64,000 bases of DNA from Alphaproteobacteria bacterium (GTDB lineage: Bacteria; Pseudomonadota; Alphaproteobacteria; Micropepsales; Micropepsaceae), in the NCBI GenBank assembly GCA_947473475.1, contig CANJBZ010000001.1, positions 124,001 through 188,000 on the forward strand. The letters are read 5' to 3'. The notes under the pieces were generated by a model. The model made no database searches. It had not been told where the DNA came from and saw nothing but the letters and a program-made list of their open reading frames with translations. The translations under genes and the position numbers were made by a program. Positions 26,540 through 32,242 of the stretch are shown here, one piece after another (position 1 is the first letter of the stretch; every line of letters starts with the position of its first letter).

Positions 26540-27268
26540 ATGATTATAAGTAAACAGGTTAACGATCATCCCCTGGGCGGCGGGGGAGGGTTTATTTCCT
26601 TAGGGGCGCCTGATGGCATGCTGAAGGGTGGGCTGGTGCTGTCGGAACTGCACGAACTCACACCGGCTGGTCCCACGCATTATGGCGCGGTGTTGGGCTT
26701 TGCTCTTGCTTTGGCAGCCCTGGCGCGCGGGAAACAAGGCGCCATCGTTTTCATCCAGCAGGACTTTGCCGCTCTCGAAGCCGCAGCGCTTTACGGCTTG
26801 GGGGGCGCGCCATTCGGCCTGGATCCTGAACGCTTTCTTCTGATCCGCGCGGCAACGGCGAAGGATGCGCTGTGGGCGATGGAAGAGGCGTTGAAGACAC
26901 GGGGGATCACCGTGGTCATCGGTGAATTGGCGGAACGCGGCGACGCGGCCGATTTAACCGCCACGCGCCGTCTCTCCCTGGCAGCGCAAAAAGGAAACAG
27001 CCTGGCGTTGTTGCTGCGCCAATATCCGTGGTGCGAACCGAGTGCGGCGGCGACCCGCTGGCAAATCGCCGGCGCGCCGGGGGCAACGGATGAATTCGGC
27101 GGTTTGGGCGGCACGGCTTTTTCTTTGACGCTGACGAAGAACCGCCGCGGGCCTTGCGGCACTTGGGTTTTGCAGTGGGATCACGATGCAAAGCGTTTCC
27201 TCCCGGCGTTATCTCGCGCTGTGGCTCAGCCGTTTGTCGACAGACCGGCTGACGCGGCAGCCGGGTAA
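26540..27268 (+). CDS. imuA: ImuA, RecA-like SOS mutasome protein
   Basis: 242 residues. Recognisable ImuA pieces are GGLVLSELHEL, FGLDPERFLLIRA, DALWAMEEAL, ATRRLSLAAQKG, SAAATRWQIAG and CGTWVLQWDHD. ImuA is a RecA/SulA-related accessory factor that works with ImuB and DnaE2 in error-prone lesion bypass. The N-terminus is short and begins only about 20 residues before the core, and the ATG sits 12 bases after the LexA box. The true start is therefore uncertain, or the N-terminus was altered by the rearrangement that removed the maltokinase. It overlaps imuB by 83 bases. Confidence 0.85.
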   Translation: MIISKQVNDHPLGGGGGFISLGAPDGMLKGGLVLSELHELTPAGPTHYGAVLGFALALAALARGKQGAIVFIQQDFAALEAAALYGLGGAPFGLDPERFLLIRAATAKDALWAMEEALKTRGITVVIGELAERGDAADLTATRRLSLAAQKGNSLALLLRQYPWCEPSAAATRWQIAGAPGATDEFGGLGGTAFSLTLTKNRRGPCGTWVLQWDHDAKRFLPALSRAVAQPFVDRPADAAAG

Positions 27269-28874
27269 ACAGGGCGGCCATCCCCTCGTCGTAGTGGGTG
27301 CCGTCAAAAATGCGCGCCGCCTGATCGCGCTCAACGATGCGGCCGAGCGCGCGGGCTTGCGCGTGGGCATGAGCTTTGCGGATGCCTGTGCGATTGTTCC
27401 CGATCTCATGTCCGCTGACGAAGCGCCGCAAGAAGACGCCCGGCTGCTTTCGGCTGTGGCCGATTGGTGCGAACGCTATACGCCGCTGGTGGGGCTCGAT
27501 GCGCCGGACGGTCTTCTGTTCGACATAACCGGCGTCGCGCATTTATTCGGCGGTGAAGCTGCGCTGGCGCAAGATCTGACGCAGCGGCTTGCAGGGTTTG
27601 GATTCAGAACGCGAATCGGCATTGCCGATACGGTAGGCGCGGCTTTTGCCATGGCCCATCACGGAAAAGAGCGAATTGTCCCTTGCGGCAAAACGCGCGA
27701 GGTTTTGGCGCCTTTGCCGCTTGCCGCATTGCGCCTGCCACTCGAAACGCGCCAAGGTTTGTCACGCCTCGGGCTCAAGACCATCGCCGACCTGATGGCC
27801 TGTCCGCGCGGACCTCTCACGGCCCGTTTTGGGGCGCATCTCATGCGCCGCCTCGATCAGGCTTTGGGGGCGGAAGAAGAGCCGATCAGCCCGCGGCAGC
27901 CGGCGCCCGCCTTGAGCGTGGAGCAAGGTTTTGCCGAACCGATTTTCCGCGATGAGGATGTGTTGCTCATCATTGGCCGCCTGACGGAGCGGCTGTGCGA
28001 AAGTCTCGAAAAGCGAGGCGAGGGCATCCGCCGCATCAGGGCGAGCGTTTTCGGCGTGGACGGGCGTTTGTTCCGTTTGGATATCGGCACCAGCGGCCCT
28101 TTGCGTGACGGTGTACGGTTGCATCGTCTGTTTACGGATAAATTCGCCACGGTGTCATGGGATTGCGAATTCGGTTTCGACTGCATTCGTGTGTCGGTGC
28201 TGGAGACGCAATCCGTCTCTCCGGCGCAGAAGAATTTCGCGGCGGGCGAAGACGATGGGCAGACCGTTTCGCATCTGATCGACCGTTTGACGGCGCGGCT
28301 GGGTGAGACGCGCGTGCTCAGATTGGTCGAGCAGGATGTGCATGTGCCCGAACACGCCTGTGTCGCCATTCCCGCCGCGGACGCGGAGGAATTTTCGGTT
28401 CCAATCACCTCCCCCTTGCGGGGAGGTCGAAATGCTGAAGCGGCGTCAGCCGCGAGGCATTTCGGGTGGGGGGATGGTTGCGGAGAGGCACCCCCACCCG
28501 AAATTGCTCGCGATGCTCGCTCCCAATTTCGATCTCCCCGCAAGGGGGAGGTGATGCCTAGAACGCACGATACCCTCGCCGCCATGCGGCCGGTGCGGTT
28601 GTTTGAGCGGGCCGAACCTATCGAAGCGATCGCTGAAGTTCCGGATGGTCCGCCGGTGCGCTTCAAATGGCGGCGCGCCGTCCATCATGTCGCGCGCGTC
28701 GAAGGGCCGGAACGCATCGCGCTCCCGTGGTGGCGTGACGGCAAAAATCGTCCTCTGACGCGGGATTATTTTCGTGTCGAAACGGACGCCGGCGCGCGGC
28801 TGTGGCTGTATCGCGACGGCCTCTTCCGCGAAACACTGGGCCCACGCTGGTTCCTGCATGGCTTCCTGCCATGA
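27186..28874 (+). CDS. imuB: ImuB, Y-family polymerase-like mutasome subunit with repeat-derived insertion
   Basis: 562 residues. It starts with RRYLALWLSRLSTDRL, where the acidic metal ligands of active Y-family polymerases are absent, as is typical of catalytically dead ImuB. DGLLFDITGVAHLFGGE and RPVRLFERAEPIEAIAEVPDGPP (split at EPIEA) are family landmarks. Between them residues about 407-456 are encoded by a 148-base palindromic element (28406-28553) and look unlike the family. ImuB normally bridges the beta clamp, ImuA and DnaE2. The frame remains open through the insertion. The stop overlaps the dnaE2 start (ATGA). Confidence 0.92.
   Translation: MQSVSSRRYLALWLSRLSTDRLTRQPGKQGGHPLVVVGAVKNARRLIALNDAAERAGLRVGMSFADACAIVPDLMSADEAPQEDARLLSAVADWCERYTPLVGLDAPDGLLFDITGVAHLFGGEAALAQDLTQRLAGFGFRTRIGIADTVGAAFAMAHHGKERIVPCGKTREVLAPLPLAALRLPLETRQGLSRLGLKTIADLMACPRGPLTARFGAHLMRRLDQALGAEEEPISPRQPAPALSVEQGFAEPIFRDEDVLLIIGRLTERLCESLEKRGEGIRRIRASVFGVDGRLFRLDIGTSGPLRDGVRLHRLFTDKFATVSWDCEFGFDCIRVSVLETQSVSPAQKNFAAGEDDGQTVSHLIDRLTARLGETRVLRLVEQDVHVPEHACVAIPAADAEEFSVPITSPLRGGRNAEAASAARHFGWGDGCGEAPPPEIARDARSQFRSPRKGEVMPRTHDTLAAMRPVRLFERAEPIEAIAEVPDGPPVRFKWRRAVHHVARVEGPERIALPWWRDGKNRPLTRDYFRVETDAGARLWLYRDGLFRETLGPRWFLHGFLP
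28406..28553. repeat. 148-base palindromic element inside imuB
   Basis: Terminal inverted repeats of about 28 bases with one mismatch: the left arm begins CACCTCCCCCTTGCGGGG at 28406, and the right arm ends CCCCGCAAGGGGGAGGTG at 28553. Inner arms ATTTCGGGTGGGG (about 28459-28472) and CCCCACCCGAAAT (about 28491-28504) nest within. The element is fully translated in the imuB frame. Confidence 0.85.
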
Positions 28875-31800
28875 GCGGCTATGCCGAGCTGGCGGTCACC
28901 AGCAATTTCTCTTTTCTGCGCGGCGGCTCGCATCCGGAAGAATTGGCGGCGCAAGCCAAAGAGCTGGGGCATGCCGCCATTGGCATTGCCGACCGCAATA
29001 CGGTGGCCGGTGTCGTTCGCGCCCATTCGATCGCAAGAGAAAAAGAGCTGCAATTTCTCCCCGGCGCGCGGCTGGTTTTCGCGGACGGCACGCGGGACAT
29101 CCTGGCCTATCCGCACTGCCTTGCCGGCTGGTCGAACCTGACGCGCCTGCTCACCCTCGGCAAAAGACGCGCCGAAAAAGGCGAATGCGAACTCTATTTC
29201 GACGACCTGCTCGAACGCGCGAGGGGACTTAATCTCATCGCCGTAATTACCAAAATTCCTACCCTCCCCTTGAGGGAGGGTAGGAAAGGGGCCGTTACAT
29301 TTCTCCACCGTTTGCGTGAGGCGGCGGATGGGCCGGTGCGGCTGGCGGCGTCGCTGCTTTATCGGGGCGACGATACGCGCCGCTTGGAACGGCTTGCCGC
29401 ATTGGCCGCCGAAGCGAAGGCGCCGCTCATCGCGATCAATGACGTTCTGTATCACCATCCTGACCGCCGGCCGTTGCAGGATGTCGTCACCTGCATCCGC
29501 GAACATGCAACACTCGAACAGGCGGGCAAGCGGCTTGAGGCAAACGCCGAAAGGCATTTGAAGCCGCCCCTCGAAATGCGCCGCCTGTTCCGCCGCTATC
29601 CGGGAGCGATCGAAGAGACGCTAGTCTTTGCCGAAAGCTGCCGCTTTTCGCTGGACGAATTAAAGCCGTCTTATCCGCTGGAAACCCGCGCAGGTTTCGC
29701 CACGCCGCAGGATGCGTTAGCCGCCTTTGCGGAAGAAGGCGCACGCACCCGCTATCCCGGCGGTATTCCGGACAAAATCCACCATTCGTTGAAGTACGAA
29801 CTCGCCCTTGTCGCCGAGCTGAATTACGCGCCGTATTTTCTCACCGTCCACGACATCGTCCGCTACGCCAAAAGCGTTGGTATTCTCTGTCAGGGACGCG
29901 GCTCGGCGGCCAATTCCGCGCTCTGTTTCTGCCTTGGCATCACCGAAGTCGACCCGATGCTCAGCGATCTTCTGTTCGAGCGGTTCATTTCGGCCGAGCG
30001 GAACGAGCCGCCCGATATCGATGTCGATTTCGAACACGAACGGCGTGAGGAGGTAATCCAATATGTCTACAAAAAATACGGCCGTGAACGCGCGGCGCTG
30101 ACCGCCACCACCATCTGCTATCGCGGGCGGAGCGCCATTCGCGAAGTGGGCAAGGTGTTCGGTCTTTCCGAAGACCTCACGGCTTCGCTGGCACGCACGC
30201 TGTGGGGCTGGTCGCCTTCGGGCGTAACCGAAAAAGACGCGCAAAGCGTGGGGCTAAATCCGGACGATCCGCGCCTGACGCAAGTGATTGCGCTCGCCGG
30301 TGAGTTGATCGATTTTCCCCGCCATCTGTCGCAGCATGTCGGCGGCTTCGTCATTACCGAAGGGCGGCTGGATGATCTGGTGCCCATCGAAAACGCGGCG
30401 ATGGAGGAACGCACCGTCATCGAGTGGAACAAGGATGACATCGACGCGCTGAAAATCCTCAAAGTCGATTTGCTGGGCCTCGGCATGCTGTCCTGCCTGC
30501 GCCGGGGTTACGCCTTCATCGAAAAACATTACGGCCAGCCCATCACGACGGCCAGCATGCCCAAGGAGGAGGAAGCGGTTTATCGGATGCTGTCCCGCGC
30601 GGATTCCGTCGGCACCTTTCAGGTGGAAAGCCGGGCGCAAATGTCGATGCTGCCGCGCCTTAGACCTAAGGAATTTTACGATCTCGTTATCGAAGTGGCG
30701 ATTGTGCGTCCTGGGCCGATTCAGGGCGACATGGTCCATCCCTATTTGCGCCGTCGCGAAGGCAAGGAAAAGGTGACCTATCACGCGCCCTCGCCGGAAC
30801 ATGGGCCCGCCGACGAGCTGGAAAAGGTGATGCGGAAGACGCTCGGCGTTCCGCTGTTTCAGGAGCAGGCGATGCGCGTCGCTATCGAAGCGGCGAAATT
30901 CGCACCCGCCGAGGCCGACCGCCTGCGCCGCGCCATGGCGACGTTCCGGCGGGTGGGTACGATCCAGACCTTTCGTGAGAAATTCGTTGGCAACATGACA
31001 AGGCGCGGCTACCCACACGAATTTGCGGAAAACTGCTTCCATCAGATCGAAGGCTTCGGCGAATATGGCTTTCCGGAAAGCCACGCCGCGAGCTTCGCTT
31101 TGCTGGTTTACGCGTCGGCGTGGATCAAGTGCCACTATCCCGACGTGTTTGCCGCGGCTCTGCTGAACAGCCAGCCCATGGGATTTTACGCGCCGGCGCA
31201 AATCGTGCGCGACGCGGCCGAACATGGTGTGGAAATCCGGGCGGTGGATGTGAGCTTTTCCAATTGGGATTGCACTTTAGAGGCCACGGCCGGCGCCGTC
31301 CGCTCCACCGCTTCGCGGTCCCCCTCCCCCGTAACCACGGGGGAGGAAAATATTTTGCGAATGCCGCCCCTTCTTTCCTCCCCCGTGGTTACGGGGGAGG
31401 TGCCCCCGAAGGGGGTGGAGGGGGCGCGGGCGGTGCTGCACCCGCGCCATGCCTCAATGCGGGACGATATCTTGACCACACATGCGCTGCGTTTGGGGCT
31501 GCGGCAGATTTCCGGCTTTTCCGAAAGAGACGCGAAACGCATCGAGCAGGTTCGTGGAGCAGGTATTCGCTCTTTGCGCGATTTCTGGCTGCGCACGCAG
31601 CTTGCGCCGGGTGCGCTCCGGAAACTTGCCGAAGCCGATGCGTTTGGTTCGCTCGGCCTCTCGCGGCGTCAGGCTTTATGGGAATTTCGGGCGCTGCGGC
31701 GGGTGGGCGACAAAGACGATCTGCCTCTGTTTGTGGGCGCGGCGCTGGAGAACAACGAACCGCAGGTCGATCTCCCGCGCATGAAATTGGGCGAGCAGGT

Positions 31801-32242
31801 CATCGAGGATTACCGGCATCTGCAACTTTCCGTGAAAGCGCATCCGCTGTCGTTCCTCCGGGGCGTATTTGAACAACGGCGCATACTGCCTTGCGAAAAA
31901 ATCGCCGATCTGAAAACCGGCCGGCGCACCACCGTCGCCGGTCTGGTGCTGGTCCGTCAGCGGCCGGGCAGCGCGCAAAGCATCTTCATAACCATCGAAG
32001 ACGAAACCGGCATTGCGAACATCATCGTTTGGCCGCCCGTGTTCGAGAAATACCGGCCCATCGTGATGGGCGCGCGCCTGACAGCGGTCTGCGGCAAAGT
32101 CCAGAACGAATCCGGCGTGGTGCATATTCTTGCAGAGACGCTCGAGGATATGACGCCGCTCTTGGGTCTTCTGAGTGGCGGCGGCGAAATCCGTCCGTCT
32201 GCTGCAGTCACCGTCATGCCCAAGGGCCGCAATTTCCACTGA
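28871..32242 (+). CDS. dnaE2: Error-prone DNA polymerase III alpha subunit DnaE2 with two repeat-derived insertions
   Basis: 1123 residues from the ATG at 28871; a longer frame exists but overlaps imuB. The N-terminal PHP domain (YAELAVTSNFSFLRGGSHPE) is followed by the C-family polymerase core with the catalytic aspartates in PPDIDVDFEHER, then GRGSAANSALCFCLGI, HVGGFVIT and SHAASFALLVYASAWIKCHY (exactly the family hallmark). An OB-fold follows near TVAGLVLVRQRPGSA. It performs SOS mutagenic lesion bypass with ImuA/ImuB. Residues about 130-138 and about 811-852 are encoded by palindromic repeats at 29258-29284 and 31301-31426, which makes the protein longer than the usual roughly 1050-1090. 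Confidence 0.95.
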   Translation: MSGYAELAVTSNFSFLRGGSHPEELAAQAKELGHAAIGIADRNTVAGVVRAHSIAREKELQFLPGARLVFADGTRDILAYPHCLAGWSNLTRLLTLGKRRAEKGECELYFDDLLERARGLNLIAVITKIPTLPLREGRKGAVTFLHRLREAADGPVRLAASLLYRGDDTRRLERLAALAAEAKAPLIAINDVLYHHPDRRPLQDVVTCIREHATLEQAGKRLEANAERHLKPPLEMRRLFRRYPGAIEETLVFAESCRFSLDELKPSYPLETRAGFATPQDALAAFAEEGARTRYPGGIPDKIHHSLKYELALVAELNYAPYFLTVHDIVRYAKSVGILCQGRGSAANSALCFCLGITEVDPMLSDLLFERFISAERNEPPDIDVDFEHERREEVIQYVYKKYGRERAALTATTICYRGRSAIREVGKVFGLSEDLTASLARTLWGWSPSGVTEKDAQSVGLNPDDPRLTQVIALAGELIDFPRHLSQHVGGFVITEGRLDDLVPIENAAMEERTVIEWNKDDIDALKILKVDLLGLGMLSCLRRGYAFIEKHYGQPITTASMPKEEEAVYRMLSRADSVGTFQVESRAQMSMLPRLRPKEFYDLVIEVAIVRPGPIQGDMVHPYLRRREGKEKVTYHAPSPEHGPADELEKVMRKTLGVPLFQEQAMRVAIEAAKFAPAEADRLRRAMATFRRVGTIQTFREKFVGNMTRRGYPHEFAENCFHQIEGFGEYGFPESHAASFALLVYASAWIKCHYPDVFAAALLNSQPMGFYAPAQIVRDAAEHGVEIRAVDVSFSNWDCTLEATAGAVRSTASRSPSPVTTGEENILRMPPLLSSPVVTGEVPPKGVEGARAVLHPRHASMRDDILTTHALRLGLRQISGFSERDAKRIEQVRGAGIRSLRDFWLRTQLAPGALRKLAEADAFGSLGLSRRQALWEFRALRRVGDKDDLPLFVGAALENNEPQVDLPRMKLGEQVIEDYRHLQLSVKAHPLSFLRGVFEQRRILPCEKIADLKTGRRTTVAGLVLVRQRPGSAQSIFITIEDETGIANIIVWPPVFEKYRPIVMGARLTAVCGKVQNESGVVHILAETLEDMTPLLGLLSGGGEIRPSAAVTVMPKGRNFH
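29258..29284. repeat. Short palindrome within dnaE2
   Basis: Perfect 11-base arms CCTACCCTCCC (29258-29268) and GGGAGGGTAGG (29274-29284) with a 5-base loop. It encodes the KIPTLPLREGRK stretch, which does not look like DnaE2 family sequence, so it is probably an inserted or remnant repeat. Confidence 0.7.
31301..31426. repeat. Head-to-head pair of REP-like units inside dnaE2
   Basis: A reversed unit (31301-31349) and a forward unit (31374-31426) of the same family as the intergenic repeats. The 27-base inner arms at 31323-31349 and 31374-31400 are exact reverse complements separated by 24 bases. The forward unit ends GGTGGAGGGGGCG like the copies at 6081 and 63541. The pair is translated in frame within dnaE2 and lies just after the conserved NWDCTLE motif. 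Confidence 0.88.

Follow-up and report, generated by a model that had tools for sequence, protein, structure and literature searches.

The imuB gene of a mutasome operon in Micropepsaceae (Alphaproteobacteria) contains a DNA palindrome that is read through as protein, which raises the question of how a repeat came to lie in this gene and whether the operon tolerates such insertions or attracts them. We examined a 64,000-nt stretch (the window; contig CANJBZ010000001.1, assembly GCA_947473475.1), the source genome of 3.87 Mb in 66 contigs, and related genomes.

A palindromic element is translated within imuB

The operon and the repeats within it have the following features (window coordinates).

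26540..27268, + strand: imuA, assigned by position; no Pfam match
27186..28874, + strand: imuB, host gene of F1, 562 aa; Pfam IMS at residues 31-153, DUF6504 at 481-557
28404..28555, + strand: F1 palindromic element, 152 nt; encodes ImuB residues 407-456 and 2 nt of codon 457
28404..28433, + strand: F1 left terminal arm, 30 nt
28407..28427, + strand: F1 local hairpin A-left (ACCTCCCC/GGGGAGGT); 98.3% of cells paired in the copy alignment
28428..28464, + strand: F1 local hairpin B (CGAAATGC/GCATTTCG, inner GCGGC/GCCGC); two-sided changes at 4 outer and 2 inner pairs
28465..28498, + strand: F1 central hairpin C (GGGTGGGGGG ... CCCCCACCC); G-rich side a candidate triplex third strand with hairpin A
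28499..28531, + strand: F1 local hairpin D (CGAAATTG/CAATTTCG); 99.6% of cells paired
28532..28552, + strand: F1 local hairpin A-right; 96.6% of cells paired
28526..28555, + strand: F1 right terminal arm, 30 nt
28871..32242, + strand: dnaE2, overlapping imuB by ATGA
29251..29295, + strand: F3, short palindrome (CCTACCCTCCCCTTGAGGGAGGGTAGG) in the PHP-domain part of dnaE2; extra residues versus relatives in the alignment
31295..31440, + strand: F2 repeat insertion in dnaE2 (palindrome 31323-31400), of another family than F1

The original prediction described a 148-base palindrome at 28406-28553 with arms of about 28 bases and one mismatch. The palindrome is real and the mismatch was called correctly, but the element extends two bases further on each side and its arms are 30 nt long, with 29/30 positions complementary (97%). 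The arm motif occurs at these two places only in the whole window (0.00 in shuffles), and the imuB copy folded as single-stranded DNA reaches -67.1 kcal/mol (z = -12.5 versus shuffles).

F1 is translated without a stop within an open reading frame, after the IMS domain and before the C-terminal DUF6504, in agreement with the predicted 50-residue insertion between the polymerase-like core and the C-terminal ImuB region. Comparison with 48 homologues from the same family and elsewhere in the class showed that residues 407-456 are missing in all of them. Across these 49 aligned proteins, the linker differs from the insert-free query by -6 to +6 residues in all except two, the source ImuB (+50) and that of genome G009 (+14), and HSP coordinates from 78 family genomes with ImuB revealed no other insert of comparable size at this site. 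F1 lies in a real gene, in frame, and its residues are absent from homologues; in this it behaves as an RPE-like protein-coding palindromic element.

In mycobacterial ImuB, a linker (residues 388-421) separates RecA-NT, which binds ImuA', from ImuB-C (PMC11791113). The F1-encoded residues are located in the ImuB linker running from the RecA-NT motif to ImuB-C. An AlphaFold2 model (39-sequence alignment; mean pLDDT 85) falls below 50 only at residues 407-468, comprising the insert and the rest of the linker, while both flanking domains are intact. According to this model, the 50-residue insert is probably disordered and floppy.

An insertion of this size could also mark an ImuB that is becoming a pseudogene, under relaxed selection rather than tolerated in a working protein. 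The conditional function of ImuB and DnaE2 would suit such decay, as would the finding that 18 of 96 family genomes lack an ImuB match at the cut-off, several of these genomes being incomplete. Nevertheless, all three operon genes are open and the ATGA overlap is retained, both ImuB domains are modelled at high confidence, and the insertions keep the frame, contain no stops and occur only in loops, a pattern that unconstrained decay would not give. We consider incipient gene loss very unlikely.

Exact removal of the 152 nt from imuB produces a frameshift and a TAG. Since 152 is not divisible by three, the event itself or later changes must have added or removed further bases. A sister-species search returned no empty imuB site at the DNA level because there is no close relative, the nearest ImuB being ~50% identical.

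F1 is built from paired hairpin modules

The nested inner arms of the original prediction exist, but five local hairpins (A-B-C-D-A') describe F1 better. Across 29 copies, they account for 98.4% paired cells and 8 pairs with two-sided changes, compared with 94.1% and 5 pairs for one long stem, and thus explain the variation among copies better. Both the long stem and the local hairpins could form, because the two halves are complementary.

Judged from its sequence, F1 consists of two modules in inverted orientation. Each combines two hairpins, the first C/G-rich, with a GGGTGGGGGG tract. In both halves, this tract runs antiparallel to the purine strand of hairpin A and matches it as G·G:C and T·A:T triads. 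Across copies, 197/203 triads are in register in the left half and 201/203 in the right; sliding the register reduces the left-half count to 56-142. The intrastrand-triplex register is conserved, making F1 a candidate triplex. Stop-free frames are also common among F1 copies (80/174, versus 24% in shuffled copies), indicating that by composition the element is fairly easy to translate.

F1 is a dispersed and mostly intergenic family

Searching the genome for elements with the same arms, as the original prediction had proposed, yielded 29 full-length copies with BLAST, 28 of them in addition to the imuB copy, and 30 with a covariance model; ~11 further copies are partial. Examined as separate stretches of the genome, they share sharp ends (ATCACC...GGTGAT) and carry their parts in the same orientation throughout. 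Scored by codon usage rather than annotation, 27/29 copies are intergenic, with 19 between co-directional, 5 between convergent and 3 between divergent genes; one lies inside a gene, imuB, and one has no assignable context. Every assignable copy other than that in imuB is therefore intergenic, mostly just behind genes. With 92.5% identity to the consensus, ranking eighth of 29, the imuB copy is a typical member of the family and not an old, worn insertion. With many copies, common ends and a mostly extragenic location close to gene ends, F1 qualifies as a dispersed palindromic repeat and, broadly speaking, as REP-like.

Some copies belong to a longer subfamily with outer arms GGGCTATCGCACAT ... 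ATGTGCGATAGCCC, seen in the flanks of L021, L012, L014, L019, L020, L007 and L025; the L021 copy has the longer arms at both sides. We rejected GGGCTATCGCACAT as an insertion target, since all 8 of its occurrences in the genome adjoin F1 copies and it is therefore part of the longer elements. The covariance model detected relatives in 27/61 genomes, mostly of the same family (Micropepsaceae), and in 9/190 genomes spread over the class. The dnaE2 gene of another alphaproteobacterial MAG also contains an in-frame F1-like element (L110:3508-3643; 78% identity over 65 nt).

F1 shares features with several known repeat systems

The TM (TMECO) repeats of E. coli combine a C/G-rich hairpin with a following G-rich third-strand tract, CCCTCTCCC-loop-GGGAGAGGG-GGGTGAGGG (Holder et al. 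2015, PMC4666352). Besides E. coli, over 260 genomes contain such intrastrand triplex motif repeats; TMECOs are multi-copy and reportedly always intergenic, and some of the listed E. coli motifs are close inverted pairs (PMC4666352). F1 resembles them in its hairpin and G-rich third-strand tract, its copy number and its inverted pairing. It differs in having one coding copy and, in each module, an extra hairpin (B or D, about 33-37 nt) before the third strand. F1 consequently exceeds the 1-6 nt loop allowed between hairpin and third strand, which places it outside the short-loop search of PMC4666352. F1 thus has relatives in the TM repeats of E. coli and a weaker relationship with whalefall-1 of Rfam.

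Whalefall-1 (RF01762) has an Rfam entry as an sRNA, recorded solely in whale-fall sequences. Its full model matches both halves of nearly every F1 copy scanned, at 20.9-30.4 bits, below the gathering score of 37; the matches include window positions 28405-28473 (+) and 28490-28554 (-), L016:1502-1566 and most other copies. Like whalefall-1, an F1 half consists of a hairpin, a second hairpin and a GGGUGAGGA-like tail, and RF01762 may itself be half of a TM-type palindromic DNA repeat. Rfam microRNA matches to F1 were dismissed as generic long-hairpin matches, far below threshold.

REPs of the GTAG and CGTC families are mostly intergenic near gene ends, with a few in frame in genes for DnaE2, other repair proteins and tRNA synthetases; their presence in repair genes has prompted the speculation that it alters mutability and is not accidental (Di Nocera et al. 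2013, PMC3733652). The main text of that paper makes no mention of ImuB. F1 is likewise a dispersed palindrome, mostly intergenic near gene ends, with one in-frame genic copy. It is nevertheless about 150 nt long, its ends (ATCACC/GGTGAT) carry neither a GTAG nor a CGTC tag, and the genome contains no Y1/RAYT transposase gene (PF01797) in a search for which control genomes were positive. Assignment of F1 to either REP family was rejected for want of both tag and Y1 transposase.

F1 has terminal inverted repeats, its 30-nt arms, in common with MITEs. A MITE with target duplication was rejected: the F1 copies give no signal of target-site duplication (mean flank match 1.38 versus 1.12 in shuffled flanks, p = 0.12). 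Rickettsia palindromic elements of the RPE-1 type lie mainly in ORFs. By description, F1 is like RPEs in being a palindromic element of 100-150 nt translated in frame as an extra peptide, but with 1/29 copies intragenic it is not an ORF-dwelling element of the Rickettsia type.

Three repeat families in one operon

As predicted, the repeat in dnaE2 is of a different type from that in imuB. F1 and F2 are separate families, although a CCTCCCCC/GGGGGAGG-type hairpin underlies both, and F2 occupies about 55 places in the genome. In an AlphaFold model of DnaE2, confidence is lowest at residues 810-852 (pLDDT <50), which correspond to the F2 insert. At the position of the F3 palindrome (29256-29290 in the window), DnaE2 of L042 (genome G035) has a REP-like peptide, LRHPGLVPGSTSPPPAPAVGARWTPELVRGDDG.

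F2 also lies in frame in glyS, encoding the beta subunit of glycyl-tRNA synthetase (L182:1472-3577, contig 27 of the source genome), where its peptide VLSSPFVTGEVARSAGGGAG is placed between IPFEI and RSGNTTRGHRF. Two further candidates for intragenic F2 copies, L061 and L071, were not counted, as the frames that span them seem to be antisense or to lie upstream of the gene. Because glyS is normally essential, tolerance of such inserts is not restricted to conditional genes, and this copy would reflect, outside the mutasome operon, the selection filter proposed below.

Three palindromes of three families within 5 kb could point to a true hot spot at the DNA level, with the operon attracting palindromes; strong induction and single-strandedness under DNA damage, coinciding with movement of the elements, would be one possible reason. 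Damage-inducible mutasome genes are known (PMC10421592), and inserts recur in dnaE2 and imuB of other genomes. However, the coincidence of F1, F2 and F3 proves little, since the families were found through this operon, and we discarded it as a statistic on account of this ascertainment bias. The presence of F2 in glyS and the lack of a common target sequence in the F1 flanks also argue against DNA-level attraction.

Palindromic inserts recur at few loops of DnaE2 and ImuB

In a sample of 80 alphaproteobacterial loci plus the window, inverted-repeat clusters reached 0.083 per kb in dnaE2 and 0.049 in imuB, compared with 0.021 in imuA (1 inverted repeat in 48 kb), 0.024 in other ORFs and 0.003 in a codon-shuffled control. 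The cases in other ORFs look like antisense or terminal ORFs, or have borderline scores. Strong palindromic inserts (score 16 or more, a threshold chosen after looking at the data) were found in 17/150 dnaE2 genes and 0/61 dnaE1 genes (Fisher p = 0.0038), although the Bradyrhizobium loci are not independent, many of these cases being related. The dnaE1 controls all come from one family, and the contrast within that family alone is 5/70 versus 0/61 (p = 0.06).

The DnaE2 inserts sit at few places, chiefly the loop from WDCTLE to xRLGxRQI and one just behind it. Those with a score of 15 or more form nine unrelated sequence clusters, mostly at these two neighbouring loops. Among them are an F1-like element (L110), repeats bounded by CGTC (Bradyrhizobium, L263) and TM-like pairs (L154, L159, L162). 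The inserts of L263 and Bradyrhizobium resemble CGTC REPs in starting or ending with CGTC. Within Bradyrhizobium, one DnaE2 loop is occupied in some genes by REP pairs with CGTC at their bounds and in others by a different pair that is TM-like (L154:2913-3023, L159:8583-8693), and L149 may retain a shortened remnant of an insert there. In ImuB, G009, from another genus, has a different palindrome in the same linker as F1; other palindromes lie further upstream (L162) or near the N-terminus (L147, L152, L161).

These comparisons show that the same class of event recurs at few loops in DnaE2 and ImuB of other alphaproteobacteria, and not in DnaE1. Unrelated DNAs at the same protein loops in different genera indicate tolerance rather than DNA-targeted insertion, which would not predict coinciding protein sites. 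With 28 further F1 copies in the genome and the residues lacking in repeat-free ImuB homologues, neither ground for refuting the original prediction holds. Its hint of tolerance or hot-spotting is partly supported, by data from which it was not derived: the evidence favours tolerance and does not support DNA-level hot-spotting. The operon as a whole is not affected, imuA being essentially free of inserts and F1 itself lying in a gene in 1/29 copies. We regard a DNA-level hot spot as unlikely.

Discussion

We consider it highly probable that a copy of F1 entered imuB and was retained because the site was a flexible linker and the insert preserved the frame and contained no stops, so that selection acted as a filter on random palindrome insertion. 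F1 would be a non-autonomous DNA repeat that spreads via hairpins or triplexes during replication or repair. Such palindromic elements would insert widely, and most intragenic insertions would be purged. ImuB and DnaE2 may withstand them, having loops that accommodate long inserts and a function that is conditional; mutasome linkers would then be among the most permissive sites for in-frame, stop-free inserts, and ImuB carrying the insert would remain functional.

The insert could instead be adaptive, the 50 residues or an mRNA hairpin modulating ImuB/DnaE2 activity, and hence mutation rate, under selection. The linker joins two ImuA-contacting regions of ImuB (PMC11791113), the insert is stop-free, and PMC3733652 speculates along these lines for REPs in repair genes. 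Yet the peptides at the same loops are unrelated and share no common sequence, the ImuB and DnaE2 inserts are predicted to be disordered, and the F1 insert is absent in most family members. We judge selection for the insert itself quite improbable. Its broadest form, in which triplex/REP palindromes at the ImuB linker and DnaE2 loops represent positively selected retuning of damage-induced mutagenesis, arrived at independently in many alphaproteobacterial lineages, is similarly a long shot.

REPs in DnaE2 are already known (PMC3733652); the F1 family, the ImuB insertion, the recurrent loops and the contrast with DnaE1 are new. The match between F1 and whalefall-1 raises the possibility that a family catalogued in Rfam as a 'small RNA' is one half of a DNA repeat. 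The imuB copy provides a clear case of a selfish-looking DNA repeat that became protein sequence in the error-prone replication machinery. This machinery takes up repeats repeatedly at defined loops and its replicative paralogue does not, and the earlier speculation that repeats do not lie in repair genes by accident becomes testable.
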